DNA of 64,000 nt from Closterium sp. NIES-65 (lineage: Eukaryota > Streptophyta > Zygnematophyceae > Desmidiales > Closteriaceae): positions 62,001-126,000 of the forward strand of contig CANXME010002666.1 in NCBI GenBank assembly GCA_948144175.1. The letters are read 5' to 3'. Below, in pieces: positions 7,035 to 30,156 of this stretch (position 1 is its first letter; each line of letters starts with the position of its first letter). The position numbers and the translations under genes were made by a program. The notes below the pieces were generated by a model. That model saw only the letters and a list, made by a program, of their open reading frames with translations, had not been told where the DNA came from and did not search any database.

Positions 7035-8695
7035 CAAGCAGCAAACAGTAAGTAGGAAATGCTCAATAGAAGTAGGACACACCAGCACGAGCACAAGCAG
7101 CAAACTGTGGTAGTGAGCATCCTCCTCACCATCGAGCAGCAAGAGGAAATGCTATGCAGCAGTAGGACACACCAGCACGAGCACAAGCAGCAAACGGTAA
7201 TTGTGAGCATCCGCCTCACCGTCGAGCAGCAGCAGAAAATACTAAGCAGAAGTAGGACACACCAGCACGAGCACAAGCAGCAAACAGTAGTAGTGAGCAT
7301 CCGCCTCACCATCGAGCAGCAACAGGAAATGCGCAGCAGCAGTAGGAAACACCAGCATGAGCCAAGCAACAAACTGTAGTTGTGAGCATCCGCTTCACCA
7401 TCGAGCAGCAACATGAAATGCTCAGCAGTAGTAGGAAACATCAGCACGAGCACAAGCAGCAAACGGCAGTTGTGAGCACCCGCCTCACTATCGAGCAGCA
7501 ACAAAAAATGCTCAGCAGAAGTAGGAATCACCAACACGAGCACAAGCAGCAAACTGTAGTAGTGAGCTTCCGCCTCACCATCGAGCAGCAACAGGAAATG
7601 CTCAGGAGCACCATCACGCGCACAAGCAGCAAGCGGCGGTTGTGAGCATCCGCCTCACCATCGAGTAGCAACAGAAAATGCTCATCAGTAGTAGGACACA
7701 CCAGCACGAGCACAAGCAGCAAACTGTGGTAGTGAGCATCCGCCTCACCATCGAGCAGCAAGAGAAAACGCTCAGCAGCAGTATGATACACCAGCACGAG
7801 CACAAGCAGCAAATGGTAGTTGTGAGCATCTGCCTCACCATCGAGCAGTAACGGAAAATGCTCAGCAAAAGTAGGACACACCAGCACGAGCACAAGCAGC
7901 AAACGGTACTAGCGAGCATCCGCCTCATCATTGAGCAGCAACAAGAAATGATCGGCAGCAGTAGGACACACCAGCACGAGCACAAGCAGCAAACGGTAGT
8001 TGTGAGCATCCGCCTCACCATCGAGCAGCAACAGGAAATGCGCAGCAGCAGTAGAAAACACCAGCACAAGCACAAGCAGCAAACTGTAGTAGTGAGCATC
8101 AACACCACCATCGGGCAGCAACAGGAAACGCTCAGCAGCAGTAGGAAACATCATCATGAGCACAAGCAGCAAACGGTAGTTGTGAGCATCCGCATCACCA
8201 TCGAGCAGCAACAGGAAATGCTCAGCTGCAGTAGGAAACACCATCACGAGCACAAGCAGCAAACGGTAGTTGTGAGCATTCGCCTCACCATCGAGCAGCA
8301 ACAGAAAATGCTCAGCAGCAGTAGGACACACCCGCACAAGCACAAGCAGCAAACGGTAGTTGTGAGCATCCACATCACCATCGAGCAGCAACAGGAAATG
8401 CTCAGCAGCAGTAGGAAACACCATCACGAGCACAAGAAGCAAACGGTAGTTGTGAGCATCCGCATCACCATCGAGCAGCAACAGGAAATGCTCAGCAGCA
8501 GTAGGAAACACCATCACGAGCACTAGCAGCAAACGGTAGTTGTGAGCATCCGCAGCACCATCGAGCAGCAACAGAAAATGATGAGCAGCAGTAGGAAACA
8601 CCAGCACAAGCACAAGCAGCAAGCGACAGTTGTGAGCATCCGCGTCACCATCGAGCAGCAACAGAAAATGCTCAGCAGTGGTAGGAAAAACCAAC
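7035..8695 (+). repeat. 90-bp satellite, about 18 units
   Basis: Unit landmarks are CTCAGCAGCAGTAGGA, CACAAGCAGCAAACGGTAGT, GTGAGCATCCGCC and CACCATCGAGCAGCAACAG. Because 90 is divisible by three, several frames stay open. The plus strand gives 30-residue repeats with VVVSIRLTIEQQQEML, the minus strand repeats with AEHFLLLLDGEADAHN. Occasional stops break both, and I see no start or splice context. It is treated as satellite. Copy B is at 35711-37371. Confidence 0.88.
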
Positions 8696-8706
8696 ATGAG
8701 TATAGG

Positions 8707-8822
8707 CGGGGGAGGAGGAGGAGGAGGAGGAGGAGGAGGAGGAGGAGGAGGAGGAGGAGGAGGAGGAGGAGGAGGAGGAGGAGGAGGAGGAGGATGAGGA
8801 GGAGGAGGAGGAGGAGGAGGTT
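8707..8822 (+). repeat. GGA microsatellite
   Basis: About 38 GGA triplets with a single GAT interruption, directly after the 90-bp satellite. Copy B (37383-37495) has one triplet fewer. Confidence 0.95.
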
Positions 8823-10945
8823 GAGTGCAATGCTGGTCCGTTGTGTGCGGTCATTGGTGGTGCTGAGTGCCCGTGAGCGGTGACACGCGGTGATGAGCGC
8901 TGATTAGGTTGGGAGCGGTGTCGAGTGGCTGTGAGTGGCTCTCGGATATTCAGAGTGGCAGTGAGCAGCGCTGAGCTGTGACGAGTGGTGATGAGCGGCT
9001 CAGAGAGGTGCGGAGTGGTGATGAGCGGCTTTGAGCGGTGCCGAGTGGTGATGAGCGGCTGTGAGTGGTGCAGAGTGCTGCAGAGCGGTTCAGAGCAGCA
9101 GTGAGCGGTGCTGGGCCGTTGTGTGCGGTCATTGCTGGTGCTGAGCGCCCGTGGGTGGTGAGGAGTAGTGATGAGCCACTCTGAGAGGTGCCAAGTGGTG
9201 ATGAGCTGCTCTGAGCGGTGCCGAGTGCTGCAGAGCAGTTCAGAGCAGCAGTGAGTGGTGATGGGTCGTTGTGTGCGATGATTGGTGGTGCTGAGCGCCC
9301 GTGAGCGGTGACGAGAAGTGATGAGCCACTCAGAGAGGTGCCGAGTGGTTATGAGCGGCTCTGAGCGGTGCCGAGTACTGCAACAAGGTTCAGAGCGGCA
9401 ATGAGAAGTATTGGGCCTTTGTGTGCGGTCATGGTGGTGCTGAGCGCCCGTGAGTGGTGACGAGCGGTGACGAGGGGTGATGAGCGACTAAGAGAGGTGT
9501 CCAGTGGTGATGAGCGGCTCTGAGGCGTGCCGAGTGCTGTAGAGTGGTACAGAGCGGCAGTGAGCGGTGCTGGGCCATTGTGTGCGGTCATTGGTGGTGC
9601 TGAGCGCCCGTGAGTGGTGACGAGCGGTGACGAACAGTGACGAGCTTCTCAGAGAGGTGCCGAGTGGTGATGAGCGGCTCCGAGCGGTGCGGAGTTCTGC
9701 AGCGCGGTTCAGAACGGCAGTGAGAGGTGTTGGGCCTTTGTGTGCGGTCATTGGTGGTGCTGAGCGCCCGTGAGTGGTGATGAGCGGTGACTAGTGGTGA
9801 TGAGCAACAGAGAGAGGTGTCGAGTGGTGATGAGCGGATCTGAGCGGTGCCAAGTGCTGCAGAGTGGTTCAGAGCGGCAGTGAGCGGTGGGTGCTGGGCT
9901 GAGCTGTTGTGTGTGGTCATTGGTGGTGCTGAGTGCCGGTGAGTGGTGACGAGCTGTGACGAGTGGTGATGAGCGGCTCAGAGAGGTGCGGAGTGGTGAT
10001 GAGCGGCTTTGAGCGGTGCCGAGTGGTGATGAGCGGCTGTGAGTGGTGCAGAGTGCTGCAGAGCGGTTCAGAGCAGCAGTGAGCGGTGCTGGGCCGTTGT
10101 GTGCGGTCATTGCTGGTGCTGAGCGCCCGTGGGTGGTGAGGAGTAGTGATGAGCCACTCTGAGAGGTGCCAAGTGGTGATGAGCTGCTCTGAGCGGTGCC
10201 GAGTGCTGCAGAGCAGTTCAGAGCAGCAGTGAGTGGTGATGGGTCGTTGTGTGCGATGATTGGTGGTGCTGAGCGCCCGTGAGCGGTGACGAGAAGTGAT
10301 GAGCCACTCAGAGAGGTGCCGAGTGGTTATGAGCGGCTCTGAGCGGTGCCGAGTACTGCAACAAGGTTCAGAGCGGCAATGAGAAGTATTGGGCCTTTGT
10401 GTGCGGTCATGGTGGTGCTGAGCGCCCGTGAGTGGTGACGAGCGGTGACGAGGGGTGATGAGCGACTAAGAGAGGTGTCCAGTGGTGATGAGCGGCTCTG
10501 AGGCGTGCCGAGTGCTGTAGAGTGGTACAGAGCGGCAGTGAGCGGTGCTGGGCCATTGTGTGCGGTCATTGGTGGTGCTGAGCGCCCGTGAGTGGTGACG
10601 AGCGGTGACGAACAGTGACGAGCTTCTCAGAGAGGTGCCGAGTGGTGATGAGCGGCTCCGAGCGGTGCGGAGTTCTGCAGCGCGGTTCAGAACGGCAGTG
10701 AGAGGTGTTGGGCCTTTGTGTGCGGTCATTGGTGGTGCTGAGCGCCCGTGAGTGGTGATGAGCGGTGACTAGTGGTGATGAGCAACAGAGAGAGGTGTCG
10801 AGTGGTGATGAGCGGATCTGAGCGGTGCCAAGTGCTGCAGAGTGGTTCAGAGCGGCAGTGAGCGGTGGGTGCTGGGCTGTTCTGTTGTGTGTGGTCATTG
10901 GTGGTGCTGAGTGCCCGTGAGTGGTGACGAGTGGTGATGAACGGT
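8823..10945 (+). repeat. 978-bp higher-order repeat built of GAGCGGTG-type units
   Basis: Short degenerate units (GTGATGAGCGGCTCTGAGCG, GTGTGCGGTCATTGGTGGTG, CTGAGCGCCCGTGAGTGGTG) are organised into a longer period. The segment at 9349-9591 recurs essentially unchanged at 10327-10569, giving a 978-bp period and about two higher-order copies. In unit B the region is at 37496-39618. Small minus-strand ORFs are repeat shadows. Confidence 0.85.
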
Positions 10946-11001
10946 GTAGTCTGACTAAGGTGTGACGTTGATGTCTGTCTCCCGCCTCTCGACTATTGCA
11001 G

Positions 11002-11559: not shown

Positions 11560-14500
11560 AGCAAGCAGTGACGGCAGCAGCAGTAGAAAGCAAGCAGTGA
11601 TGGCAGCAGCAGTAGCAAGCAAGCAGTGATGGCAGCAGCAGTAGAAAGCAAGCAGTGATGGCAGCAGCAGTACAAGCAAGCAGTGACGGCAGCAGCAGTA
11701 GCAAACGAGCAGTGATGGCAGCAGCAGTAGCAAGCAAGCAGTGATGGCAGCAGCAGTAGCAAGCAAGCAGTGAAGGCAGCAGCAGTAGCAAGCAAGCAGT
11801 GACGGCAGCAGCAGTAGAAAGCAAGCAGTGATGGCAGCAGCAGTAGAAAGCAAGCAGTGATGGCAGCAGCAGTAGAAAGCAAGCAGTGACGGCAGCAGCA
11901 GTAGAAAGCAAGCAGTGATGGCAGCAGCAGTAGCAAGCAAGCAGTGACGGCAGCAGCAGTAGCAAGCAAGCAGTGATGGCAGCAGCAGTAGCAAGCAAGC
12001 AGTGACGGCAGCAGCAGTAGCAAGCAAGCAGTGATGGCAGCAGCAGTAGCAAGCAAGCAGTGATGGCAGCAGCAGTAGCAAGCAAGCAGTGAAGGCAGCA
12101 GCAGTAGAAAGCAAGCAGTGACGGCAGCAGCAGTAGAAAGCAAGCAGTGACGGCAGCAGCAGTAGAAAGCAAGCAGTGATGGCAGCAGCAGTAGCAAGCA
12201 AGCAGTGACGGCAGCAGCAGTAGCAAGCAAGCAGTGATGGCAGCAGCAGTAGCAAGCAAGCAGTGATGGCAGCAGCAGTAGCAAGCAAGCAGTGAAGGCG
12301 GCAGCAGTAGCAAGCAAGCAGTGACGGCAGCAGCAGTAGAAAGCAAGCAGTGATGGCAGCAGCAGTAGAAAGCAAGCAGTGATGGCAGCAGCAGTAGCAA
12401 GCAAGCAGTGATGGCAGCAGCAGTAGCAAGCAAGCAGTGATGGCAGCAGCAGTAGCAAGCAAGCAGTGATGGCAGCAGCAGTAGCAAGCAAGCAGTGATG
12501 GCAGCAGCAGTAGCAAGCAAGCAGTGATGACAGCAGCAGTAGCAAGCAAGCAGTGATGGCAGCAGCAGTAGCAAGCAAGCAGTTATGGCAGCAGCAGTAG
12601 CAAGCAAGCAGTGATGGCAGCAGCAGTAGCAAGCAAGCAGTGATGGCAGCAGCAGTAGCAAGCAAGCAGTGAAGGCAGCAGCAGTAGCAAGCAAGCAGTG
12701 ACGGCAGCAGCAGTAGCAAACAAGCAGTGAAGGCAGCAGCAGTAGCAAGCAAGCAGTGACGGCAGCAGCAGTAGAAAGCAAGCAGTGATGGCAGCAGCAG
12801 TAGAAAGCAAGCAGTGATGGCAGCAGCAGTAGCAAGCAAGCAGTGATGGCAGCAGCAGTAGCAAGCAAGCAGTGATGGCAGCAGCAGTAGCAAGCAAGCA
12901 GTGATGGCAGCAGCAGTAGCAAGCAAGCAGTGATGGCAGCAGCAGTAGCAAGCAAGCAGTGATGGCAGCAGCAGTAGCAAACAAGCAGTGATGGCAGCAG
13001 CAGTAGAAAGCAAGCAGTGATGGCAGCAGCAGTAGCAAGCAAGCAGTGATGGCAGCAGCAGTAGCAAGCAAGCAGTGATGGCAGCAGCAGTAGCAAGCAA
13101 GCAGTGATGGCAGCAGCAGTAGCAAGCAAGCAGTGACGGCAGCAGCAGTAGCAAACGAGCAGTGATGGCAGCAGCAGTAGCAAGCAAGCAGTGATGGCAG
13201 CAGCAGTAGCAAGCAAGCAGTGAAGGCAGCAGCAGTAGCAAGCAAGCAGTGACGGCAGCAGCAGTAGAAAGCAAGCAGTGACGGCAGCAGCAGTAGCAAG
13301 CAAGCAGTGACGGCAGCAACAGTAGCAAGCAAGCAGTGATGGCAGCAGCAGTAGCAAGCAAGCAGTGACGGCAGCAGCAGTAGCAAGCAAGCAGAGATGG
13401 CAGCAGCAGTAGCAAGCAAGCAGTGATGGCAGCAGCAGTAGCAAGCAAGCAGTGAAGGCAGCAGCAGTAGAAAGCAAGCAGTGACGGCAGCAGCAGTAGA
13501 AAGCAAGCAGTGACGGCAGCAGCAGTAGCAAGCAAGCAGTGATGGCAGCAGCAGTAGCAAGCAAGCTGTGATGGCAGCAGCAGTAGCAAGCAAGCAGTGA
13601 TGGCAGGAGCAGTAGCAAGCAAGCAGTGATGGCAGCAGCAGTAGCAAGCAAGCAGTGATGGCAGCAGCAGTAGCAAGCAAGCATTGATGGCAGCAGCAGT
13701 AGCAAGCAAGCAGTGATGGCAGCAGCAGTAGCAAGCAAGCAGTGATGGCAGCAGCAGTAGCAAGCAAGCAGTGATGGCAGCAGCAGTAGCAAGCAAGCAG
13801 TGAAGGCAGCAGCAGTAGCAAGCAAGCAGTGACGGCAGCAGCAGTAGCAAACAAGCAGTGAAGGCAGCAGCAGTAGCAAGCAAGCAGTGACGGCAGCAGC
13901 AGTAGAAAGCAAGCAGTGATGGCAGCAGCAGTAGAAAGCAAGCAGTGATGGCAGCAGCAGTAGCAAGCAAGCAGTGATGGCAGCAGCAGTAGCAAGCAAG
14001 CAGTGATGGCAGCAGCAGTAGCAAGCAAGCAGTGATGGCAGCAGCAGTAGCAAGCAAGCAGTGACGGCAGCAGCAGTAGCAAACAAGCAGTGATGGCAGC
14101 AGCAGTAGAAAGCAAGCAGTGATGGCAGCAGCAGTAGCAAGCAAGCAGTGATGGCAGCAGCAGTAGCAAGCAAGCAGTGATGGCAGCAGCAGTAGCAAGC
14201 AAGCAGTGATGGCAGCAGCAGTAGCAAGCAAGCAGTGACGGCAGCAGCAGTAGCAAACAAGCAGTGATGGCAGCAGCAGTAGAAAGCAAGCAGTGATGGC
14301 AGCAGCAGTAGCAAGCAAGCAGTGATGGCAGCAGCAGTAGCAAGCAAGCAGTGATGGCAGCAGCAGTAGCAAGCAAGCAGTGATGGCAGCAGCAGTAGAA
14401 AGCAAGCAGTGATGGCAGCAGCAGTAGCAAGCAAGCAGTGATGGCAGCAGCAGTAGCAAGCAAGCAGTGACGGCAGCAGCAGTAGCAAACGAGCAGTGAT

Positions 14501-16355
14501 GGCAGCAGCAGTAGCAAGCAAGCAGTGATGGCAGCAGCAGTAGCAAGCAAGCAGTGAAGGCAGCAGCAGTAGCAAGCAAGCAGTGACGGCAGCAGCAGTA
14601 GAAAGCAAGCAGTGATGGCAGCAGCAGTAGAAAGCAAGCAGTGATGGCAGCAGCAGTAGAAAGCAAGCAGTGACGGCAGCAGCAGTAGAAAGCAAGCAGT
14701 GACGGCAGCAGCAGTAGCAAGCAAGCAGTGATGGCAGCAGCAGTAGCAAGCAAGCAGTGATGGCAGCAGCAGTAGCAAGCAAGCAGTGATGGCAGCAGCA
14801 GTAGCAAGCAAGCAGTGACGGCAGCAGCAGTAGAAATCAAGCAGTGATGGCAGCAGCAGTAGAAAGCAAGCAGTGACGGCAGCAGCAGTAGAAAGCAAGC
14901 AGTGACGGCAGCAGCAGTAGCAAGCAAGCAGTGATGGCAGCAGCAGTAGAAAGCAAGCAGTGACGGCAGCAGCAGTAGCAAACGAGCAGTGATGGCAGCA
15001 GCAGTAGCAAGCAAGCAGTGATGGCAGCAGCAGTAGCAAGCAAGCAGTGATGGCAGCAGCAGTAGCAAGCAAGCAGTGATGGCAGCAGCAGTAGCAAGCA
15101 AGCAGTGATGGCAGCAGCAGTAGCAAGCAAGCAGTGATGGCAGCAGCAGTAGCAAGCAAGCAGTGATGGCAGCAGCAGTAGCAAGCAAGCAGTGATGGCA
15201 GCAGCAGTAGCAAGCAAGCAGTGATGGCAGCAGCAGTAGCAAGCAAGCAGTGATGGCAGCAGCAGTAGCAAGCAAGCAGTGATGGCAGCAGCAGTAGCAA
15301 GCAAGCAGTGATGGCAGCAGCAGTAGCAAGCAAGCAGTGATGGCAGCAGCAGTAGCAAGCAAGCAGTGATGGCAGCAGCAGTAGCAAGCAAGCAGTGATG
15401 GCAGCAGCAGTAGCAAGCAAGCAGTGATGGCAGCAGCAGTAGCAAGCAAGCAGTGATGGCAGCAGCAGTAGCAAGCAAGCAGTGATGGCAGCAGCAGTAG
15501 CAAGCAAGCAGTGATGGCAGCAGCAGTAGCAAGCAAGCAGTGATGGCAGCAGCAGTAGCAAGCAAGCAGTGATGGCAGCAGCAGTAGCAAGCAAGCAGTG
15601 ATGGCAGCAGCAGTAGCAAGCAAGCAGTGATGGCAGCAGCAGTAGCAAGCAAGCAGTGAAGGCAGCAGCAGTAGCAAGCAAGCAGTGACGGCAGCAGCAG
15701 TAGCAAACAAGCAGTGAAGGCAGCAGCAGTAGCAAGCAAGCAGTGACGGCAGCAGCAGTAGAAAGCAAGCAGTGATGGCAGCAGCAGTAGAAAGCAAGCA
15801 GTGATGGCAGCAGCAGTAGAAAGCAAGCAGTGATGGCAGCAGCAGTAGCAAACAAGCAGTGATGGCAGCAGCAGTAGCAAGCAAGCAGTGATGGCAGCAG
15901 CAGTAGCAAGCAAGCAGTGATGGCAGCAGCAGTAGCAAACAAGCAGTGATGGCAGCAGCAGTAGAAAGCAAGCAGTGACGGCAGCAGCAGTAGCAAGCAA
16001 GCAGTGATGGCAGCAGCAGTAGCAAGCAAGCAGTGATGGCAGCAGCAGTAGCAAGCAAGCAGTGATGGCAGCAGCAGTAGAAAGCAAGCAGTGATGGCAG
16101 CAGCAGTAGAAAGCAAGCAGTGATGGCAGCAGCAGTAGCAAGCAAGCAGTGATGGCAGCAGCAGTAGCAAGCAAGCAGTGATGGCAGCACAGTAGAAAGC
16201 AAGCAGTGATGGCAGCAGTAGTAGCAAGCAAGCAGTGATGGCAGCACAGTAGAAAGCAAGCAGTGATGGCAGCAGCAATAGAAAGCAAGCAGTGATGGCA
16301 GCAGTAGTAGCAAGCAAGCAGTGACGGCAGCAGTAGTAGCAAGCAAGCAGTGACG
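11560..16355 (+). repeat. 4.8-kb 29-bp satellite
   Basis: About 165 units of GATGGCAGCAGCAGTAGCAA plus GCAAGCAGT, with recurrent point variants: GACGG/GATGG/GAAGG, GTAGAAAGC/GTAGCAAGC and AAACGAGC. Twenty-nine is not a multiple of three and the reverse complement lacks stops in every frame. Minus-strand ORFs of over 1200 and 1780 codons therefore appear, cycling through LLLLLPSLLACYCCCHHC. They are artefacts. Copy B is at 40233-45028 and looks the same. Confidence 0.95.
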
Positions 16356-19545: not shown

Positions 19546-22500
19546 GCGGCGACGGCGGAGAGAGCGGGCGGGGATGGGGGGGAGGGCGGGGCTGGTGTGC
19601 GGGGAGGCGGAAGCGACGGTGTGGTTGCCGGGGGTGGCGGAGCGGCGGGAGCGGGTGACGGAGGCGGAGGGGGGAGCGGGCGCGGGGACGAGGAGCTGCT
19701 GTGCCCCAACTGCCGCGCGCCCCTCTCGCTCCTCTCTTTCCCCGCGCTTGCCTTCCCCCATTCCCCCTCCTCCCCGTCCGCGTCCGCGCTATCTCCGCCC
19801 ATGTCCGCGGCGGAGGCGCGCACGAGCGGGCGCGCGGTGCTGTTCTGCCGCCAATGCCAGCGATTCACCGACAGGCCGGTGGCGAGAGGGACAGGGGAGG
19901 CGGAGAATGGGCGGAAGGGGAAAGAAGAGGGGCAGCCGCAGGTGACGGCGGAAGGGCAGTGCGCAAGCGGGGGGAAGGGGGAAGGATTGGGGAAGGGCAA
20001 GGCCGGGGGGGGGGGCGCGAGAGTGGGGGAGTTTGTGGAGGCGGACTGGTATGAAGCGGACTGGAAACATGTCTCCCCCCTTTCCGCCGTCACTCCCCCC
20101 GAGCCCCCCGCCTCTGACGCGTGGCAGTGGTCCCGCTTTGGGCGGCAACTTAGCCGCCAAGACGGCCGCCCGGGCGGCAGGTCTGCGCGCAGCGAGCTGG
20201 ACGGGATGATGGGCGGGGCGAGCGGGGGGGAAGGGGGGAGCGCGCGGAGGGATGCGCGGGAGGAGTATGTGAATCGGTTCAAGGCGAGTTTGCAGGGGTG
20301 GGGGGGGCACCCGTGGGCGCAGGGACAGGGGCAGCAGGGGCAGGGACAGGCAGGCGCGGGGGGAGAAAAGAAAGCGCAAAGGCAGGGGCAGGGGCGGAGT
20401 GAGGGGCAGCAGGTGGGCAGCAGCGGAAGGAATAGAAGCCCTGGCGGTGGCGGAAGCAGCGCCAGCGCGTATCCCCCTAGCTTCTCCTCCCCCCTCCTGC
20501 ACGCCCCCAGAGGCCCCCCCGCCCCGCCTCCGCCCCCGTCCCCCCTGGCCGCGCCCACGCAGATCCCCCCCGCGCCTGGCGCGGGTGCGGGGGAGAAGCG
20601 GGGGAGGGGGCAGCAGAGCGGGGGAGGGGAGGGGAGGGAGGGGCGGGAAGGGCGGGAAGGGCGAGAGGGGAGGGAGGGGCATGTGCCGTGTTTTGGGGCG
20701 GCAGGGGGAGGGGAGGACGGGACAGAGCACAACTGGGGAGGGGCGAATCTGGGGAGAATCTGCCCACGCCCAAGCAGATCCGGGCAGCTCTGGATGAATT
20801 TGTGATCGGGCAGGATAATGCGAAAAAGGTGAGCGGGTGCTGGTGACGTGGCAGTTACTGTTAGGCTGGTGGTGTAACAGGTTTACAGTCACAGACTCGC
20901 TAAGAGCAGTATTTTTTCTTCTTCTTTTGATTTTATTTGTAACCGAATGTTTGCAGTGGCGGTGGTGTACCCACTACGAGCGCATCTTCTCTATAAGCTC
21001 ATTTCGTTACGAGCCCTTTCCGATCCCCGTATGCTACCCTTTGCTGCAGGTTTTGGCAGTGGCAGTTTACAATCACTACAAGCGCATCTTTCTTGAAAAC
21101 CAGAAGCGGGAAAGACTTGCCAACCTGCCAGAGGGGTGAGAAGGGGTAAAAAAAAGGCGAGAGGAGGTTCAGAGGGGTGAGAGGGGGAGGAGAGGAAGTG
21201 GGAGAGGGGCTGTGTGCTGTGTGTGGTGAGGGATGGAGAGGGAGAGGAAATGTTCTTTAAAGTGATTCAAGCAAGGATTAAGAGGGAGAGGGAGAGGGAG
21301 TGACCGGTCATCTACCTGAACGATCCCCTTTTCTACACCTCACATGGGGGAAAGAGATTAGGCTTGCTCCACATTTTGCCCACTGTCCGCCCTCCCTCAC
21401 TCACTCACTTCTGTTCTTGCTCACCCCCATGGTGGATAAGAGCAACGTGCCCCTCACTCCCTACCCTCTCCCTATGCCCCCCGTCGCCCTCTCTTCCACC
21501 TCTCTTCCCCCCTGCAGGGCGTGCGAGAACCTGGTGGGGGGCGGTGAGGAGGACGAGGTGGAGGTGGAGAAGAGCAACGTGCTGCTGATGGGTCCCACGG
21601 GTTCAGGTGGGTGCAAGAATCACCACTGCAGCATACGGGGGGCAGGGCCGCATGGGAGCAGCGGAATAGCATAGGGTAGGGCAAGCATGGGACGAGGTGC
21701 AGGTGGGGAAGAGCAACGTGGTGCTCATGGGAGGGACCCACAGGCTCTGGTGGGTGGGTGGTTGGATGCAGCCCATCGGAAGCAGTAGGTGTTTGGACGG
21801 GTTCAGGCGTCGTGTCGTCTCAAAACTCGATGGGCCCGACTGACTGACACATGGGTCCCTCGCACGGGCCCCGATCATGTCGCTCGCATACAGCTGTTCA
21901 GGTACTATCGCCTGTCAAGCAAGGGCTGCCCAGAGGGTTTATTGGAGGGAAGATTTTAACAGGCTCATGAATGCGTGTATGCGTTCTTGCCTTCCTGTCG
22001 CCCAGCGGTCTCATGAGCAACGTGCTTCTCATCTCGCTCACGCGTGTGTCTCTCTCCACTCAACTTATCCCACTCCCCACCTGTCAACTCACCTTATCGG
22101 CTCCACTCCATCCGCCCACTCCCTACCCGCTCCGCGCCTGTCCGGCCTGTGATGGCAATGTGGTCAACATCCCAGGCCACTCCCTACCTTATTCTTTGCG
22201 GGCGGTATTTCAACCGCTGCTGTCCCTTGGGTGCAGTGCATGCAGGCAAGACCCTACTGGCCAAGACTCTGGCGCGGTTTGTCAACGTGCCATTCGCCAT
22301 TGCTGATTTTTGAGTCGACTCAAAAAAGTCCCCTCCCCCCACACACTGGTGGGTGACTATCCCCTCCCCCCCCCCAACGCGTGCAGGCAAGACCCTACTG
22401 GCCAAGACTCTGGCTCGGTTTGTCAACGTGCCATTCGCCATTGCTGATTTTTGAGTCGACTCAAAAAAGTCCCCTCCCCCCACACACTGGTGGGTGACTA

Positions 22501-25500
22501 TCCCCTCCCCCCCCCCAACGCGTGCAGGCAAGACCCTACTGGCCAAGACTCTGGCTCGGTTTGTCAACGTGCCATTCGCCATTGCTGATGCCACCACTCT
22601 CACTCAGGTGCGCCTTTAACGAGGTGACTCTTAATTGACTCAAAGGCCACTCTCACCCAGCTGCGTCTCATACCGCCACTCTCATCAACTTCCACACCCA
22701 GCTGCGTCTCATACCGCCACTCTCATCAACTTCCACACCCAGCTGCGTCTCATACCGCCACTCTCATCAACTTCCACACCCAGCTGCGTCTCATACCGCC
22801 ACTCTCATCAACTTCCACACCCAGCTGCGTCTCATACCGCCACTCTCATCAACTTCCACACCCAGCTGCGTCTCATACCGCCACTCTCATCAACTTCCAC
22901 ACCCAGCTGCGTCTCATACCGCCACTCTCATCAACTTCCACACCCAGCTGCGTCTCATACCGCCACTCTCATCAACTTCCACACCCAGCTGCGTCTCATA
23001 CCGCCACTCTCATCAACTTCCACACCCAGCTGCGTCTCATACCGCCACTCTCATCAACTTCCACACCCAGCTGCGTCTCATACCGCCACTCTCATCAACT
23101 TCCACACCCAGCTGCGTCTCATACCGCCACTCTCATCAACTTCCACACTCAGCTGCGTCTCTCTGATTCTCAGGTTGGATACAGCCTGGTTTCCACACTC
23201 TTTCACACGGGAGAGTTCACCAGTATGGTTAACCAGTAGGGTTAACTCTCCCGTGTCATGGTATGCCACTTAGGGAGTGCGTGACAAGGGGCATATTATT
23301 ACTATCACCGTTGCTCTTGAGCCAATTCCCACACGATGACTCGTGATTCGCCTCAAAGGTCACTTCGTTACAGTGGCATGCAGGACAACGGGCTTTCTAC
23401 TAGAACTGTGTTTCCTGAGCCAACGCTCACCTATTTCTCATTCTCTGGTGCTGTTTGTCGTGCAGGCTGGTTATGTGGGAGAGGACGTGGAGATGATTCT
23501 CTATAAGCTGCTGCAGGTGAGGGACAGAAGGGGTTGTTGGGGTTGGGACAGGGAGTGGGGGGTGGGGGGGTTATGTTATGTTAGTGTTTCTGCTCCTCGT
23601 GCAGGCGGGGTATGTGGGAGAGGACGTGGAGATGATTCTCTATAAGCTGCTGCAGGTGAGGGGGTTTGGAAGAGGTGAGACGGGTCAGTAGAGGTGTTAG
23701 CTTGTCGTGCAGAGGACGCGGAGATGATATTTTACAAGTTGCTGCACCTACAAGTGGAGGTGAGGGTAGGGGTTGCTGCACCCGGGTCCCAACCCCGGGT
23801 GGCTTCACGTAGCTCAACTGCTCCTTACAAGTTACATTCATTTTGCTCCTGATGTGCATGCTTGCATGTTCATGACTATCTGTTCTGTGTGTGATTCCCA
23901 TGGTGGTGTGTGTGTGTGCGTGACTGTCCATTTGTCTTACGCAGAGCGCCAATTTCAGTGTGTCAGCAGCGCAGCAGGGCATCGTGTATATCGACGAGAT
24001 CGACAAGCTTACCAAGAAGGTGGGCTCGCTAGCAGCACTAGCGGCACTAGCTGCACGGGCACTAGGAGATGCAACCCCCCCCCACTAAAGCAGCAGCGCA
24101 GCAGGGATCGTGTATATCGACGAGATCGACAAGCTTACCAAGAAGGTAGGCTTGCTAGCAGCACTAGGGGCACTAGCGGCACTGGCGCTAAGTAGGTGCT
24201 CCCCACCCCACCAGAGCAGCAGCGCAGAAGGGCATTGTAAACATAGATGAGATTGACACGCGCACTAAAAACATGAGCTTAATCTGGACAGCCCCCGCTC
24301 TCCCCTCTGTGCGTGCCTGGACAGGCAGAGGGCATCACGAGCACACGGGACGTGTCAGGGAAAGGCGTGTTGGAGTGTCTTATCCAATAAGTGTCTTACT
24401 GATTCCTCTCTCCCCCCTCTCTCATCTCCGCGCCCTGTATGACTGCACAGGCAGAGGGCATCACGAGCACACGGGACGTGTCAGGGGAGGGCGTGCAGCA
24501 GGCGCTTTTGAGGATGCTCGAGGGCGCTGTGAGTAAAGAAGGGGGGGGGGGAGGGAGGGTATGGGAGTATGTGAGGAGGTTGGAGGAGGCGGGATGGGAG
24601 GGACGTGTCAGGGGAGGGCGTGCAGCAGGCGCTGTTGAGAATGCTCGAGGGCGCTGTGAGTGGGGGGAAGGGGTGGGCTGTAAGGGGATATGATGTGAGC
24701 TGGTTTGAAGGACGGTGGGATGAGAGACACAGGTCTATTGGCGTTTGAGATGTGGCAGGGGAGGGCGTGCGGCCGCCGTTGTTGAGGATGCTGAGGGGCG
24801 CTGTGAGGGTGGTGTGAGCATCCATGAGCCCGTTTGTCACACGTGTGTGTCCCTCTACCTACTGGTGCGGAGCGGATCTTCTCACTCCCCCTGGGCCCTG
24901 GGTGCAGGTGATTGATGTGCCAGAGAAAACAGGGAGGAAGTCCTTCAGAGATTTAGGGCGCCTTGTAAGTCTCATGTGCCGGTCTTCCCCCTGCTCCTCC
25001 CCTCTTCTCCCGGGTACAGGTGATCAATGTGCCAGAGAAAACAGGGAGGAAGAATCCAAGAGGCGAGTTCATACAGGTACGGGCTACAGGGGTGCGGGAG
25101 TGCGAGGGTTGCAGGGGTGCAGGGGTACGGGGGTAGAACAACGATACCGGGTGTTTCTGTTTTGAGACGTCTCAAAACACTTCTTCAAACACGGAGTGCG
25201 AGGGTTGCAGGGGTGCAGGGGTACGGGGGTAGAACAACGATACCGGGTGTTTCTGTGCCGAATGCCTGGAAATCACAACGAATATCACACAGAGCGGAAA
25301 GGGTTTCTGCTCAATGGCTAGATACGTTTGAGGCGCATTCCAAGTCGGAGTGTGTTTGTTAGCATGGCTAGCGACCTTCATCCCCTTGGAATTTACCTCA
25401 ACAGAGGTGAGGGTCGATGAAGAGTATGTCTACCACCTCTTATTCCAACTTTTGAGGCGCGTCAGGAGTTGTCTCCGTTCATGCTTACTGCCTGCCATTC

Positions 25501-28500
25501 CCCTCTCGCATACCTCCCCTTTCTTTGCCCCACCCATCCCACCAGGTTGACACACAAGACATACTCTTCATCAACCCTCACCTCTGTTGCTTGCCGTGCC
25601 AGCCATTCCCAGCCCAATACCCCCTTTCCCATACTTGACTTTGCCTTTCCCCTCCCAACCCACCAGCTGGACACACAGAACATTCTCTTCATCTGCCCTC
25701 CACTGCCGCTGCCTGCTATTCCCACCCCCACGCCCCAAGCCACATGCCCGATGCCCCATCCACCCCAATGCTTCCCCTTATCCCACCCCGCCAGCTGGAC
25801 ACACAGAACATTCTCTTCATCTGTGGAGGGGCATTCGTGGATCTGGAAAAGACGATTGCAGAGAGGTGAGGCGGAGGCTGCTTTTGCTGACTCAAAATGC
25901 ACTCACTGATACGTCTGCTATCGTCAGGTTTTTGAGATTTCTCAAAACATTTGCTGACTCAAAATGCACTCACTGATACGTCTGCTATTGTCAGGTTTTT
26001 GAGAATTCCTTCAAAATTTGCTGACTCGAAATGCACTCACTGATACGTCTGCTGTCGTCAGTTATGACCTAAAAAAAAAAAATCGAAGAAAAGACAATCG
26101 CACTGAAGGTGCGCAACCATGGTTTTGGGGCAGGGAAAATGAAGCCACCGTTTCTCGCCTTTCAGTGCGATTGTCTTCGCCGCAGCAGTGTGTGCTACAA
26201 CTGTGTATGCAGGCAATGTCAGGAATGCAGTCCCATCTTAACTACTTTGCCTACTCTGATGACCCACCCACATGTTAGAAACGACTTTCAATAATTGTCT
26301 GCAGTTTGACTCTAACATTGACTGCGGTTTGAATCGGTCTGATTGTCTGCAGTCAATGTTAGGAATGTATCTCCTGCCTTTCGTTGGCCGTGCTATGCTA
26401 GCCCTCAGAGCTCCTAAGCGCGCAACTCTGCAAGCACTGCAAGAACATACAATGTTGTCTTGACTGCATGTCTTGACTCTCTCTATTACCATTCATTTGT
26501 TGCAGGAAGCGCAAGTCATCAATCGGCTTCGGGGCCCCCGTGTGACATTGCTGCAATCATTGCAAGCAGACATGAGACTGACTGCATTCCATGACTCAAA
26601 TCCCAATATTACCTTGCTGCGTGCAGGAAGCACAAGTCATCCATCGGCTTCGGGGCCCCCGTGCGCGCATCGCTGCGCAACCGATCGGTGCTTGACGCCC
26701 GCACTGCCGGCTCGCTGCTGCAATCGGTGAGTGCTAACTCTATACCGTTGGTTTGTTTGTTTGTTTTTTTGGTTGATTTGTTTGTTGGTTTGATTGTTTG
26801 GTTGGGTTTTGTTTTGTTTTGTTTTGTTTTGTCATTGTTTTAGCGCGTGTGCCAGCGATCCATGCTTGCAACACTTGCTGTGTGTGCTTGTGGGCGTGCT
26901 GCTTTTGAGAGCTGCTTTTCACTGTCCTATAAGCCACCTGCTGCAGTTGATGCGTGCTCTTCCTTCAACCATCCTTTCCCCGCCACCCCGCAAACCCCCT
27001 TCCCCCCTTTTTTTGTATCAACGGCTCGCAGAGAGCACTTTTGAGGCGCCTCAAAAGTTGTCTCTCTACCCGCAATTCCCGTATCTCCCCCCCCCCCCCC
27101 CCCCCCCCCCCCCGTCTTTTTTTGCTCATCAACTGCACTCAGAGAGCACAGATCGGGTAGCCTACAGGCTCGTCCCCGAGTTTGTGGGGCGATTCCTTGT
27201 GTTATTGTTATACCCCTCCAGATCCTCCCTCCCCATCGTTCAACATCCCTCCCCACCCGTCCCCACCCCTCCCTACCCCTCTGGAACGGCAGGCAGAGAG
27301 CACGGATCTGATAGCCTATGGGCTCATCCCTGAGTTTGTGGGGCGATTCCCCGTGCTGGTGGGGCTGCATGCGCTCACAGAGGAGCAACTCGTGCAGGTA
27401 ATGACTGGTGCAGGTAATGACTGGTGCAGGTAATGACTGGTGCAGGTAATGACTGGTGCAGGTAATGACTGATGCAGGTAGTGACTTGTGCAGGTAATGA
27501 CTGGTGCAGGTAGTGACTGGTGCAGGTAGTGACTGGTGCAGGTAATGACTGGTGCAGGTAATGACTGGTGCAGGTAGTGACTGGTGCAGGTAATGACTGG
27601 TGCAGGTAATGACTGGTGCAGGTAATGACTGGTGCAGGTAATGACTGATGCAGGTAGTGACTTGTGCAGGTAATGACTGGTGCAGGTAGTGACTGGTGCA
27701 GGTAATGACTGGTGCAGGTAATGACTGGTGCAGGTAATGACTGGTGCAGGTAGTGACTGGTGCAGGTAATGACTGGTGCAGGTAATGACTGGTGCAGGTA
27801 ATGACTGGTGCAGGTAATGACTGGTGCAGGTAATGACTGGTGCAGGTAATGACTGGTGCAGGTAATGACTGGTGCAGGTAATGACTGGTGCAGGTAATGA
27901 CTGGTGCAGGTAATGACTGGTGCAGGTAGTGACTGGTGCTGGTAATGACTGGTGCAGGTAGTGACTGGTGCAGGTAATGACTGGTGCAGGTAATGACTGG
28001 TGCTGGTAATGACTGGTGCAGGTAATGACTGGTGCGGGTAATGACTGGTGCGGGTAATGACTGGTGCGGGTAATGACTGGTGTGTGTAGGCTTTGGTAAC
28101 AACAGCTGGTGCTCATGGGGCTGCGTGCTTTCACAAAAGAGCAACATGTGCAGGTAGGTGTAGTGCAGGTGGCAACTGGTGCAGGTGGCAACTGATGCAG
28201 GTGGAAGCAAAGGACCTTTCTTATGCACTTCGAATTATGTCTATATACAGAGCTGAGTGGCTTTCCTTGCATGATTCGACACGTATTTTGGTCCATCTTC
28301 TTTTCCTAATCCCTGCCCAGAAAATTTACGTTCTTAAAACCGGAGGGCCAAGAAGGCCCAAATTGCCTCAACCTTCCTAACCTTGGTTGAGTTTGGCCCT
28401 CGCACCCAAAATCTTGGCCAATTGTGTTGCTCGCTCCAACCAAGCTTCCTAAGGTTGAAGTTCTTGGCCCGCGGGTTGTAACCCCTGAAACACTACCCGA

Positions 28501-30156
28501 TTCTTATCCCTCTCCCCACCCTCCTGCTCCTTCTCCGTACTCGTTCTCTCCTCTCGGTGTGGCTCTCACTTGCAGGTTCTCTTAAAGCCCAAGAACGCCC
28601 TCAGCAAGCAATTCGCCAAGCTATTGGCCATGAACAACGTGAGTGCAGTGTGGGCTGCTGGTTGTGGGTCACGAGCATTGTGTTTTCTATTGTATAAATA
28701 AGAAATCCAGACAGTTCTCGGTTAGCAAGCAAGTGCAATTTGCAAAGCTACAGGATGCAGAATAGCACTCAGTGTTGCCTTCTTCCTTGTCCTCATGCTC
28801 TCCCAATCCTCCCCTCCCCTCTTACTGAGGCCCGTCTGCACATGACAGAGGAGGCAGTGAGGGCCATTGCGTGGAGTACAGCACCCATTCTTGCCCTTTT
28901 CCATGACCTCGTGCCATCTCCATCTCATCTCTTCCTGCCCTCCCTTCCACTCCACCCACTCAGGCCCGCTTGCACATGACGGAGGGGGCAGTGAGGGCCA
29001 TAGCGCGCAGAGCAGCAGCGCGAAACACGGGGGCCAGGGGGCTGCGATCGCTGCTGGAGGGGCTGCTCACCGAGGCTATGTACGAGGTATGGCGACTGCC
29101 GAGGCTATGTACGAGGTATGGCGACTGCCGAGGCTATGACGAGGTATGGTGGCTGCCAAGGCTGTGTATGAGGTATGATGATTACCGAGGCTATGTATGA
29201 GGTATGGCGGTTACTGAGCCTCTGTATGAGGTACAATGTAATAGATACAATACTCACCAGGCCTATGTACGGGGTACGGTGTAACAGGCTAACAAAAGGT
29301 ACGGCGGTTACTAAGGCTGTGTATGAGGTACGTACAGCAGTTACCGAGGCACTGCTTGAGGTATGTACGGCAGTTACCAAGGCTGTGTATGAGGTACTGT
29401 GATCGCCAGTGGACCTTGGTATTGTTGTGAAGGCAATGTTGTTGGATGAGGTATCAGTGGGGGCTCGGAGGGGAGGTGGGGTTAACCTGCTCGCTGCTTT
29501 CCTCCATCCATCCCTCCATTCCGTCCTTCCCACCCCAACTCCCCAGGTCCCCAGCAATCTGGTGGAAGCAGTGGTGCTGGACGAGGCATCGATGGGGCAC
29601 GAGGGGGAGGAAGGGGAAGAGGGCAAGCCGGTGTGCAACTGTGTCCTTGATCATTGCCCTCATTCCACGCCCATCCGTCATCTCATGCCCCAACCCACCA
29701 GGTCCCCAGCAGTCTAGTGAAGGCAGTTGTGTTGGACAAGGCATCGGTGGGGCACGAGGGGGAGGAGGGGGGCGACGGGGTAACCTGCACTCTGCCATCA
29801 TCCATCCATCCCTCCTATCCCTGCTCTTCCAAGCCTGATCTTCCCGTCCCTGCCATCCCTGCCATCCCCACCAGGTCCCCAGCTCTCTGGTGGAAGCAGT
29901 GGTGCTGGACGAGGCATCGGTGGGGCACGAGGGGGAGGAGGGCGAGGACGGGGTACCGGGGTGTGGGGCCCACATACTGCAAGGGGAGGGCTCGTGGGAG
30001 CGGTGGTTGCAGGATAACGAGGGGGGAGGAGAGAAGGCGGGAGGGAAGGGAGAGGAGGGCCAAGGGGGAGGAAGCAAGGGAGGCTCATCTGGGGGAGGTG
30101 GAAGTGATGAGGAATCGGATGCAGCTCCTGCTCTTGCCACAGCCACTGCAGCTTGA
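19546..30156 (+). CDS. CLPX: ATP-dependent unfoldase ClpX, copy B (14 recognised exons)
   Basis: ClpX forms an AAA+ ring that unfolds proteins and feeds them to ClpP; this version resembles plant mitochondrial ClpX. Exons: 1 about 19546-20828, 2 21050-21135, 3 21518-21606, 4 22528-22607, 5 23466-23516 or 23605-23655, 6 23945-24019, 7 24451-24528, 8 25020-25076, 9 25795-25865, 10 26627-26726, 11 27293-27397, 12 28576-28638, 13 28964-29086, 14 29875-30156. Exons 2-14 join in one frame (1260 nt, 419 residues plus stop). Visible motifs are Walker A GPTGSGKT (exons 3/4), pore loop GYVGED, Walker [21 protein letters not shown], sensor 1 [10 protein letters not shown], ClpP-docking IGFGAP, FVGRFPV and sensor 2 NTGARGL. 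Exon 1 carries CPNC and CRQC zinc-finger pairs and ends with [18 protein letters not shown]. The zinc-finger and LPTPK frames differ by one base near 20754. The true start is probably in an unfound upstream exon. Confidence 0.93.
19702..19857 (+). other. CLPX: Zinc-finger region of ClpX copy B (CxxC-x44-CxxC)
   Basis: CPNC at 19702-19713 and CRQC at 19846-19857 are in the same frame, separated by 44 residues. Plant mitochondrial ClpX proteins carry a similarly spread four-cysteine region before the AAA+ core. Bacterial ClpX has a more compact C4 finger. In copy C the same pairs are at 48375-48386 and 48519-48530. Confidence 0.7.
20945..20992 (+). repeat. Echo of CLPX exon 2
   Basis: GTTTGCAGTGGCGGTGG...TACGAGCGCATCTTC aligns with exon 2 (GTTTTGGCAGTGGCAG...TACAAGCGCATCTTT). 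It is shortened, frame-disrupted and lies about 90 bp before the real exon. Copy C is at about 49617-49664. Confidence 0.7.
21430..22042 (+). repeat. Three partial echoes of CLPX exon 3
   Basis: All match the stretch encoding EKSNVLLMG. They are GTGGATAAGAGCAACGTGCC at about 21432-21455, upstream of the real exon; GACGAGGTGCAGGTGGGGAA continuing through AGCAACGTGGTGCTCATGGG to a GTGGGT donor-like site at about 21690-21752; and ATGAGCAACGTGCTTCTCAT at about 22013-22036. Copy C equivalents are at +28672. Confidence 0.75.
22307..22326. repeat. Perfect 20-bp palindrome, family TTTTGAG-N4-CTCAAAA
   Basis: TTTTTGAGTCGACTCAAAAA sits exactly where the first exon 4 echo breaks off. A second identical copy is at 22448-22467. 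In unit C they are at 50979-50998 and 51120-51139. Confidence 0.9.
22448..22467. repeat. Perfect 20-bp palindrome, second copy
   Basis: Identical to 22307-22326, carried along in the 141-bp repeat and ending the second exon 4 echo. Confidence 0.9.
22650..23157 (+). repeat. 41-bp intronic minisatellite, about 12 units, resembling the exon 4 end
   Basis: The unit is CTGCGTCTCATACCGCCACT plus CTCATCAACTTCCACACCCAG. The CCGCCACTCTCATC part resembles the last bases of exon 4 (GCCACCACTCTCACTCAG with GTGCGCC after it). This suggests an origin from that splice junction. Copy C is at 51322-51829. Confidence 0.85.
23205..23256. repeat. 52-bp hairpin in CLPX intron 4
   Basis: The perfect 13-bp arms ACACGGGAGAGTT and AACTCTCCCGTGT are separated by 26 bp. 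It could be a small foldback element or an RNA hairpin. Copy C is at 51877-51928. Confidence 0.8.
23605..23655 (+). repeat. Duplicate of CLPX exon 5 with both splice sites
   Basis: Exons 23466-23516 and 23605-23655 are both 51 nt, both have AG and GTGAGG borders, and both encode [17 protein letters not shown], with differences only at synonymous sites. A third, decayed copy (AGGACGCGGAGATGATATT) is at about 23712-23752. Inclusion of both would duplicate the pore-loop peptide in frame. Copy C has the pair at 52138-52188 and 52277-52327. Confidence 0.88.
24090..24262 (+). repeat. Two echoes of CLPX exon 6
   Basis: The first (24090-24145) matches [18 protein letters not shown] but has lost one base (CAGGGATCG for CAGGGCATCG), and keeps a GTAGGC donor. 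The second (about 24213-24262) is more diverged and reads [17 protein letters not shown] without a donor. Both lie downstream of the real exon at 23945-24019. Copy C is at +28672. Confidence 0.85.
24325..24375 (+). repeat. Echo 1 of CLPX exon 7
   Basis: After an ACAG acceptor it reads [18 protein letters not shown], then loses similarity. It lies upstream of the real exon at 24451. Confidence 0.83.
24602..24805 (+). repeat. Echoes 2 and 3 of CLPX exon 7 (3' parts)
   Basis: Sequence 24602-24655 repeats the exon from GACGTGTCAGGGGAGGGCGT to its GTGAGT donor. A second, decayed version is at about 24747-24804 with a GTGAGG donor. Neither has the exon's 5' half. Copy C is at about 53274-53477. 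Confidence 0.83.
24908..24964 (+). repeat. Same-length alternative copy of CLPX exon 8
   Basis: It is 57 nt, the same as real exon 8 (25020-25076), with GCAG acceptor and GTAAGT donor. It encodes [19 protein letters not shown], against [19 protein letters not shown] in the real exon. The first half is conserved and the second half replaced. It could be a mutually exclusive exon. Copy C is at 53580-53636. Confidence 0.85.
25095..25258 (+). repeat. Intron 8 duplication with a palindrome at the joint
   Basis: A roughly 63-bp segment (GTGCGAGGGTTGCAGGGG...CGGGTGTTTCTG) occurs twice, at about 25096-25159 and 25195-25256. The palindrome TTTTGAGACGTCTCAAAA at 25160-25177 sits directly after the first copy. 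Copy C is at +28672. Confidence 0.88.
25546..25697 (+). repeat. Two truncated echoes of CLPX exon 9
   Basis: After CCACCAG acceptors, 25546-25575 (GTTGACACACAAGACATACT...) and 25667-25697 (CTGGACACACAGAACATTCT...) repeat the first 30 or so bases of exon 9 (LDTQNILFI). They then diverge with no donor. The real exon is 25795-25865. Copy C is at +28672. Confidence 0.88.
25883..26061 (+). repeat. Three about 45-bp repeats separated by palindromes (intron 9)
   Basis: TTGCTGACTCAAAATGCACT continuing to CGTCAG occurs at 25883-25927, 25950-25994 and 26018-26061. Between copies 1 and 2 lies TTTTGAGATTTCTCAAAA (25930-25947). Between copies 2 and 3 lies the imperfect TTTTGAGAATTCCTTCAAAA (25997-26016). 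Copy C is at +28672. Confidence 0.9.
26087..26180. repeat. Echo of exon 9 3' end and its inverted copy (hairpin)
   Basis: GAAAAGACAATCGCACTGAAG followed by GTGCG at 26089-26114 resembles the exon 9 donor junction (GAAAAGACGATTGCAGAGAG|GTGAGG). Its 17-bp core AAGACAATCGCACTGAA (26091-26107) is repeated inverted at 26161-26177. This is a 17-bp stem with a 53-bp loop. Copy C is at +28672. Confidence 0.8.
26312..26362. repeat. 14-bp-stem inverted repeat in intron 9
   Basis: CTAACATTGACTGC (26312-26325) and GCAGTCAATGTTAG (26349-26362) are perfect complements. The origin is unknown. Copy C is at +28672. Confidence 0.78.
26506..26545 (+). repeat. Truncated echo of CLPX exon 10
   Basis: After TTGCAG it repeats the first 40 or so bases ([12 protein letters not shown]) and then diverges. 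The echo has KRK where the real exon (26627) has KHK. Copy C is at 55178-55217. Confidence 0.86.
27028..27201 (+). repeat. Echoes of CLPX exon 11 with palindrome and poly-C tract
   Basis: A short fragment GCAGAGAGCAC (27028-27038) runs straight into the perfect palindrome TTTTGAGGCGCCTCAAAA (27039-27056). A C27 tract follows at 27087-27113 (28 in copy C). A diverged echo at about 27140-27201 reads [19 protein letters not shown], against [19 protein letters not shown] in the real exon. Copy C is at about 55700-55874. Confidence 0.85.
27392..28087 (+). repeat. 16-bp minisatellite of the exon 11 donor junction (about 43 units)
   Basis: The unit GTGCAG|GTAATGACTG is the last six bases of exon 11 plus its donor. 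Each unit offers a CAG|GTAATG or CAG|GTAGTG 5' splice site. Sixteen is not a multiple of three, and reading through from exon 11 meets TGA after about three units, so only the first donor gives the full protein. Copy C (56065-56744) has one unit fewer. Minus-strand repetitive ORFs here are artefacts. Confidence 0.92.
28105..28154 (+). repeat. Echo of CLPX exon 11 3' end beyond the minisatellite
   Basis: GTGCTCATGGGGCTGCGTGC continuing to ACATGTGCAG|GTAGGT resembles the exon end GTGCTGGTGGGGCTGCATGC...CTCGTGCAG|GTAATG. The 16-bp array is therefore sandwiched between the exon and its own decayed 3' end. Copy C is at about 56762-56811. Confidence 0.8.
28325..28475. repeat. Foldback-rich stretch in intron 11, possible exon 12 echo
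   Basis: GTTCTTAAAACC...GGGCCAAGAAGGCCCAAATT weakly resembles the exon 12 start (GTTCTCTTAAAGCCCAAGAA). CTCAACC pairs with GGTTGAG, and GGGCCAAGAA pairs with TTCTTGGCCC further on. The relationship to exon 12 is tentative. Copy C is at +28657. Confidence 0.4.
29072..29401 (+). repeat. Exon 13 donor-junction minisatellite, copy B
   Basis: Same as 386-716 but with one base lost in the third unit and several substitutions shared with copy C but not with A. Confidence 0.8.
29547..29782 (+). repeat. Echoes 1 and 2 of CLPX exon 14, copy B
   Basis: Counterparts of 862-944 and 1017-1097, at 29547-29629 and 29702-29782. Echo 1 reads DEASMGHEG where copy A reads DEASVGHEG. Confidence 0.78.

Follow-up and report, generated by a model that had tools for sequence, protein, structure and literature searches.

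Duplicated exon fragments at the CLPX locus

The 64,000-nucleotide stretch analysed here, from Closterium sp. NIES-65 (hereafter the window; C2368:62001–126000 in our contig numbering, from an assembly of 874 Mb in 2400 contigs), has a G+C content of 56% and carries the gene CLPX, whose introns hold partial copies, or echoes, of the exons beside them. The CLPX model comprises 14 exons with GT-AG introns throughout and a single open frame across exons 2–14, and its identity rests on a phmmer search of the PDB for ClpX (best E 2.4e-117); the protein is probably most like land-plant CLPX. A tandem duplication of 28.68 kb, which escaped the preliminary description of this DNA, encloses the whole locus. 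Since positions 1–30423 and 28687–59080 are near-identical (99.78%), the same model fits at two places, the second being 49153–58813, and the two units differ chiefly in homopolymers and arrays. Beyond the window the family is larger still, with at least 17 copies of CLPX exon 13, spread over six contigs, at a protein identity of 93% or higher.

Each core exon (2–14) was aligned locally to its adjacent introns (for exon 14, with 500 bases downstream added) and compared with 200 dinucleotide shuffles. A copy in an adjacent intron beats the largest shuffle score for 12 of the 13 exons, the exception being exon 12, whose adjacent introns score 85 against a shuffle maximum of 96 and 98 for distant introns. 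This is the distribution that the preliminary description had claimed, with exon 12 as the doubtful case. For the same 12 exons the adjacent copy also outscores the distant introns, which total 6.6–7.8 kb (3.6–12 times the adjacent length), by a margin that is narrowest for exon 2 (116 versus 91). An ungapped self-comparison of CLPX at offsets of 45–350 yields 30 events, and none in 20 shuffles; such ungapped diagonals replaced both a blastn self-comparison, which gave 9 plus-strand pairs and missed many, and a gapped banded alignment, which chained events together. Tandem Repeats Finder, run with looser settings, reports periods of 121–141 bp that span exons 4, 6, 9 and 10. First-order offsets range from 67 to 173 bp, mainly 112–155, and exons mostly carry one to three copies each. 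The gene and its duplicated tracts, with window coordinates and strand, are as follows.

20481–30156, +: CLPX gene, exons 1 (3′ part) to 14, from the gene model and ClpX match; one of two window copies
20957–20991, +: weak upstream echo of exon 2 (21050–21135), after an AG; score 116, shuffle maximum 90, position by eye
21690–21756, +: downstream echo of exon 3 (21518–21606), donor side; offset 139, 82–90% identity
22234–22448, +: two upstream echoes of exon 4 (22528–22607), 141-bp unit
22308–22325, unstranded: palindrome TTTTGAGTCGACTCAAAA at the exon 4 duplication junction; second copy at 22449–22466
23585–23662, +: complete downstream copy of exon 5 (23466–23516) with both splice sites and 2 synonymous differences
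23709–23746, +: second, decayed copy of exon 5
24104–24232, +: downstream echo of exon 6 (23945–24019), donor side, 126-bp unit
24217–24279, +: an older exon 6 echo on the downstream side; third codon positions account for 10 of its 14 differences
24299–24383, +: upstream echo of exon 7 (24451–24528), acceptor side
24600–24693, +: downstream echo of exon 7, donor side
24747–24814, +: second downstream echo of exon 7, donor side
24885–24940, +: upstream echo of exon 8 (25020–25076), acceptor side
25097–25296, unstranded: intron-only duplication, in the order 63-bp X, palindrome (25160–25177) plus 15 bp, X
25500–25583, +: older upstream echo of exon 9 (25795–25865)
25621–25704, +: younger upstream echo of exon 9, acceptor side
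25881–26065, unstranded: intron-only 67-bp repeat with palindromic spacers (25930–25947, and a decayed one near 25997)
26428–26544, +: upstream echo of exon 10 (26627–26726), acceptor side
26974–27038, +: intron flank with roughly 10 bases from the start of exon 11, truncated by the palindrome at 27039–27056
27125–27207, +: upstream echo of exon 11 (27293–27397), acceptor side
28109–28143, +: exon 11 echo on the downstream side, towards the donor
28807–28885, +: upstream echo of exon 13 (28964–29086), acceptor side
29070–29397, +: 29/33-bp junction arrays starting in the 3′ end of exon 13
29533–29623, +: upstream echo of exon 14 (29875–30156)
29670–29784, +: second upstream echo of exon 14

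The copy numbers first proposed hold for exons 4, 5, 6, 7, 8, 10, 13 and 14 and were too generous elsewhere: exon 3 has one clear copy rather than three; exon 9 has two rather than at least three, the rest being weak; and exon 11 has two clear exon copies, the third being mostly intron flank with about ten exon bases. The single copy of exon 2 is present but weak, with no match that reaches the 42.1-bit cut-off of the published screen applied below. Both exon 4 echoes keep the acceptor and lose the final 18 bases, with a palindrome at each end point. Exon 5, which carries a GYVG motif that is presumably the ClpX pore loop, and its full copy at 23605–23655 are separated by an 88-bp spacer and form a candidate pair for mutually exclusive splicing. 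By eye, inverted repeats at 25400–25590 and 26090–26180 also seem to hold pieces of exon 9.

Echoes in other genes and in sampled genomic stretches

The preliminary description proposed other genes of this genome as a check, and such copies are there too. Across five CCT chaperonin genes (five of about eleven CCT loci by our grouping, with exons taken as profile-match segments and not as full gene models), 21 of 25 exon segments are accompanied by an adjacent copy that outscores each of 100 shuffles. Aminoacyl-tRNA synthetase genes likewise show overlapping exon matches side by side, for example at C946:57425–58831. A second gene in the window, at 60645–63704, for which a Pfam scan of the joined pieces tested gave no family, contributes two further features:

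61840–62716, +: 137-bp array (6.5 copies) that reads as an exon 3′ end plus donor, the exon reading being by eye
62873–62953, +: upstream echo of an exon starting at about 63049; 161-bp offset, score 189, exon start by eye

In 140 kb from three contigs (stretches L009–L022) we found 230 low-copy events, with offsets peaking at 100–180 bp. Local duplications cover a mean of 41% of 15 sampled stretches, which are these fourteen plus L027 (range 9–61%, with 99% in the array L027), and 0–3.4% of five shuffled stretches. Twelve of the 15 (L009–L020) had been picked because they hold palindromes of the kind described below; L021 and L022 were not, and L027 (C895:33001–43000) was chosen for its likeness to an array in CLPX, parts of it being 66–69% like the 41-bp array in intron 4. 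Among other large arrays, a minisatellite of 165 copies of a 29-bp unit lies at 11560–16353, upstream of CLPX, and further arrays occupy 7054–10946.

Probable duplication of short tracts regardless of exons

The geometry of the echoes indicates how the copied tracts are bounded. We examined 19 CLPX echo alignments, leaving out the exon 2 echo, the exon 13 array and the flank copy at 26974. All 11 upstream echoes extend to the acceptor edge, 10 of them with an AG at the aligned position, but none extends to the donor; five of the eight downstream echoes reach the donor and the other three end 1–14 bases short in ungapped matching, and the exon 5 copy is the only one of them with an acceptor. 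The CCT genes give the same picture on the best match per exon, as all 11 upstream echoes begin no more than 5 bases from the segment's 5′ edge and all 10 downstream echoes stop no more than 7 bases from its 3′ edge, one of the latter being a complete copy. The early observation that echoes keep either the acceptor or the donor side is thus sound, and the pattern is the one expected if a tract with one end in an intron and the other in an exon has been duplicated in place: copied tracts take in intron flank at one end, and their other end lies within the exon. Copying through spliced RNA can be rejected, since the copies contain intron flank.

Introns are duplicated almost as extensively as exons. 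In CLPX, local duplications cover 604 of 1249 exon bases (48%) and 2606 of 6292 intron bases (41%, with arrays masked and echoes counted as intron). Non-exon windows score positive in 35 of 56 cases at the CCT loci, and in 95 of 162, 38 of 81 and 41 of 135 cases in C6, C9 and C10, respectively. We therefore favour, with a probability of roughly 0.8, the reading that in-place duplication of short DNA tracts takes place across much of the sampled genome, regardless of exons.

Several observations weigh against this reading. Exons are overlapped by 18 of the 30 CLPX events, compared with a mean of 10.5 when exon positions are rotated, a count reached in 0.4% of rotations, and positives are more frequent among CCT exon segments (21 of 25) than among non-exon windows (35 of 56), although the two tests differ slightly and no p-value applies to the pair. 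The differences between exons and 18 of their echoes fall 40, 20 and 55 times on codon positions 1, 2 and 3, where base and CpG context would predict 37.8, 40.8 and 36.4 (p<0.0001), so that second positions are short. Some echoes, such as the old copy of exon 6, may once have been used as exons, and turnover of which copy is used is therefore possible. Density is patchy: L021 and L022 are covered to 9% and 28%, with 4 of 27 windows positive in each, and the 3.2 kb upstream of CLPX are covered to only 2%, yet 5 of 14 windows there are positive by a laxer test. Finally, a plain tandem duplication should leave its two copies abutting, and only one of 17 two-copy events with at least 92% identity (from L009–L022, the five CCT loci and CLPX) does so within 3 bp; the median gap is 42 bp, which ungapped matching may stretch. 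Simple slippage thus fails to explain the first copy, and we rejected abutting tandem duplication as the first step.

The preliminary description had pointed to a process that duplicates exon-sized tracts; if this were directed at exons, the exons might be marked by splicing, chromatin or RNA intermediates. Such a process would account for echoes in 33 of the 38 exons tested and for their modest excess relative to both intron windows and rotated exon positions. The copies themselves carry intron at one side and break within the exon at the other, duplications confined to introns have a similar frequency per base, and the excess, which had been proposed as a check, may be explained by decay. 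Within copies, the exon part has diverged at 115 of 984 positions (12%) and the intron flank at 90 of 319 (28%), and we judge from this divergence that exon copies remain recognisable about 2.4 times longer, enough to produce an excess of the observed size; exon copies are seen longest because one partner is conserved. On coverage, geometry and decay we rejected exon-directed copying as the main cause and consider it quite unlikely.

The codon-position skew bears equally on the view that the echoes have been retained for a regulatory role as alternative, mutually exclusive exons. The deficit at second positions, the third-position bias of the old exon 6 copy and the complete second copy of exon 5, with both splice sites and synonymous differences only, would all fit this view. 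By our estimate, synonymous change in the exon that is used can explain much of the skew; none of the other 18 CLPX echo alignments extends to both splice sites, and in-frame stops interrupt the copies of exons 4 and 10. As a general account of the echoes, regulated alternative exons seem very unlikely to us.

Ongoing duplication in gene copies and haplotypes

The duplication process is active, because copies of CLPX and presumed haplotypes differ in unit number; the claim that duplication here is local, repeated, graded in age and continuing is upheld. The CLPX copy on contig C2244, which has two exon differences from the window copy, carries one 141-bp exon 4 unit fewer and two extra 96-bp units in intron 8; the C2013 copy likewise has about two 96-bp units more. 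The copies on C2004 and C508 each have one additional 67–70 bp unit in intron 9. The shorter exon 4 form is found in five of the CLPX copies listed; mafft placed the exon 4 unit wrongly when aligning the C508 and C2004 copies, whose exon substitution counts were not used.

Most CCT genes are present on two near-identical contigs, and the assembly therefore appears to hold two haplotypes. The second contigs of the five CCT genes align near full length at 0.07–2.6% divergence, with 0–7 insertions or deletions (indels) of at least 12 bp. Such indels occur in four of the five presumed haplotype pairs, L029/L034 having none, and also in a short sixth pair, all within this one assembly. Presumed haplotypes also differ in the number of copies of a 91-bp unit (four versus three) and of a 42-bp unit (three versus two).

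Errors of assembly or sequencing might mimic such duplications, as the repeats and the 28.7-kb tandem array are hard to assemble and the two window copies of the locus differ mainly in homopolymers and arrays. However, the divergence of the echoes is graded, they recur in unrelated genes on several contigs, and the second CCT contigs align nearly throughout. We regard an artefact as extremely improbable.

A palindrome at duplication junctions

The 18-bp palindromic core TTTTGAGNNNNCTCAAAA occurs 12 times in the window at up to two mismatches (0.16 expected), at 22308, 22449, 25160, 25930, 27039 and 4745 and at the equivalent places in the second tandem unit. The site at 4745, upstream of CLPX, has one mismatch and lies between two 35-bp repeats. 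Genome-wide there are 30,327 core sites, compared with 4 for the reversed-pattern control, and the half-site GTGACTTTTGAG occurs 4,414 times on one strand and 4,569 on the other. Four self-complementary centres account for 26,579 of the core sites (TCGA 13,080, GCGC 5,851, ACGT 5,047, AATT 2,601), and in one case the palindrome is perfect over 34 bp. In the sampled stretches L009–L022, centres TTGA, TCAA and ACAT stand beside TCGA and ACGT and look like products of CpG decay, which might offer a clock for insertion age.

Direct repeats scoring at least 90 flank 41 of 44 sampled palindromes, several of which are neighbours in arrays, compared with 37% of 498 control positions. Among 32 single palindromes, 16 have a left repeat whose end lies 12 bp or less from the core, and the median repeat in those 16 is 57. 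An exact pair of filled and empty sites comes from a CCT gene: C1657 has a 30-bp sequence on both sides of a 23-bp palindromic insert, and C1133 carries the 30 bp once, without the insert. A second haplotype pair shows an insert of about 24 bp bearing an ACGT palindrome, with a repeat of about 20 bp. Given these filled and empty haplotype sites, the insertion of the palindrome and the duplication of its target probably occurred in one step. Literature searches found neither the 18-letter TCGA form of the palindrome nor a description of this class of palindromic insertion, and what is new here is such a core, at tens of thousands of sites and often between direct repeats.

These data would fit a palindromic micro-element of about 20–34 bp that inserts and duplicates a target of about 20–125 bp, after which slippage multiplies the unit and the palindrome decays. 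Such an element would exist in tens of thousands of copies with almost no interior and no fixed target-duplication length, and it might seed both the exon echoes and intron growth. The sheer excess of core sites over the reversed pattern, most of them with one of four self-complementary centres, the direct repeats around nearly all sampled palindromes and the palindromic inserts in both of the new two-copy haplotype differences that we dissected speak in its favour. In contrast, a left repeat within 12 bp of the core is found for only half of the single palindromes, and a palindrome lies at the gap in only 14 of 42 duplications of at least 92% identity in L009–L022 (10–25 of 210 in random stretches), and the youngest show no increase (2 of 7). 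Within CLPX only copies of exons 4 and 11 end at a palindrome, and the exact-site pair, which is 2.6% diverged, has six other indels of at least 12 bp, not all of them dissected. We put the micro-element forward tentatively, as a possibility that is less likely than not. The variable self-complementary centre could result from the joining of two identical short ends; twin-primed copying of an RNA 3′ end and fold-back DNA are examples of how these might arise. If the proposal is correct, it would represent a new insertion class and provide a mechanism for exon stuttering, the phenomenon compared below.

A model for in-place duplication

Returning to duplication regardless of exons, we propose that a single step would leave two copies of a tract of about 20–130 bp, usually with unduplicated or inserted sequence between them, and that later slippage or unequal exchange would add or remove units. 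A tract that runs from an intron into an exon would give an upstream copy with the acceptor and without the 3′ end, and a tract that runs out of an exon a downstream copy with the donor and without the 5′ end. Copies with one splice site would presumably be skipped by exon definition and tolerated, and copies that break the message would be removed by selection. The molecular cause may lie in staggered breaks or nicks, followed by fill-in and joining. Repair or insertion at staggered breaks, which leaves the tract on either side of a filler, followed by gain and loss of units, is in our assessment the best-supported account. The model offers a concrete route for intron growth and for the origin of single spare splice sites, and the two apparent haplotypes, together with at least 17 copies of one locus, let single steps be compared and so make the mechanism testable.

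Comparison with known systems

Tandem mutually exclusive exons, of which one per tandem group is chosen for the mRNA (PMC9013439), resemble the present case in having extra exon copies in adjacent introns; they differ in that only exon 5 of CLPX has a copy with both splice sites, as far as the available text of that source allows a comparison. Intron gain by tandem duplication has been described in potato (PMC4974935, available text).

Two further systems share parts of the pattern. Patch-mediated or nick-induced tandem duplication reportedly occurs in plants, in work said to be that of Vaughn and Bennetzen in 2014 and of Schiml et al. in 2016; it is said to give short direct duplications from staggered breaks, with or without filler, much as here, whereas the density of duplications and the sequence-specific palindromic filler set the present case apart. 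Miniature inverted-repeat transposable elements (MITEs), introners and other short insertions exist as many related copies between direct repeats, and in this the numerous short, related palindromic insertions with flanking direct repeats are similar. The palindrome here has almost no interior, however, and its repeats extend from about 20 to 125 bp instead of a fixed few bases; the fixed short target duplication of a classical DNA transposon or MITE was absent from the two allelic cases, which have repeats of 30 and about 20 bp.

The closest counterpart is exon or sequence stuttering in genes on chicken dot chromosomes (Hron et al. 2026, PMC12954441), which was the only source found in a literature search on both terms and whose available text leaves the cause open. 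The preliminary description had regarded the duplication of exon tracts in place as lying outside standard gene models, a view that this report on birds has overtaken. As described in its available text, stuttering places partial copies of the adjacent exon in introns, together with the splice site on the same side; the copies cross exon borders and are proximal rather than distal, coding exons stay intact and lengths vary within the species, all of which holds here. We applied the published screen settings and the 42.1-bit cut-off to 38 exons and 33 introns of our chosen CLPX and CCT genes: 31 of 38 exons match a proximal intron and none a distal one, 27 of 33 introns are positive, and shuffled introns gave no match of 20 bases under this cut-off.

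What sets the present case apart is its density, its apparent lineage and the palindrome, and possibly its copy number. Positive introns number 27 of 33 here and 190 of 5,572 in the dot-chromosome set, a comparison of chosen genes with all introns that relies on the printed chicken numbers. CLPX mostly has one to three copies at spacings of 67–173 bp, whereas the chicken clusters have a median of 4 copies (range 1 to 44); arrays that include exon ends also occur here, such as the 6.5 copies at 61840–62716. Many junctions here carry a palindrome, of which the available text of PMC12954441 makes no mention. That text places stuttering mainly on small GC-rich dot chromosomes of birds, with gerbils as data not shown, and the present genome apparently belongs to another lineage. 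By the three features tested, namely proximal copies, border-spanning tracts and length variation, and as far as the available text of that report describes them, the case in CLPX and CCT is the same kind of phenomenon as chicken exon stuttering, which is thus found in a seemingly distant lineage and in most of the exons tested.

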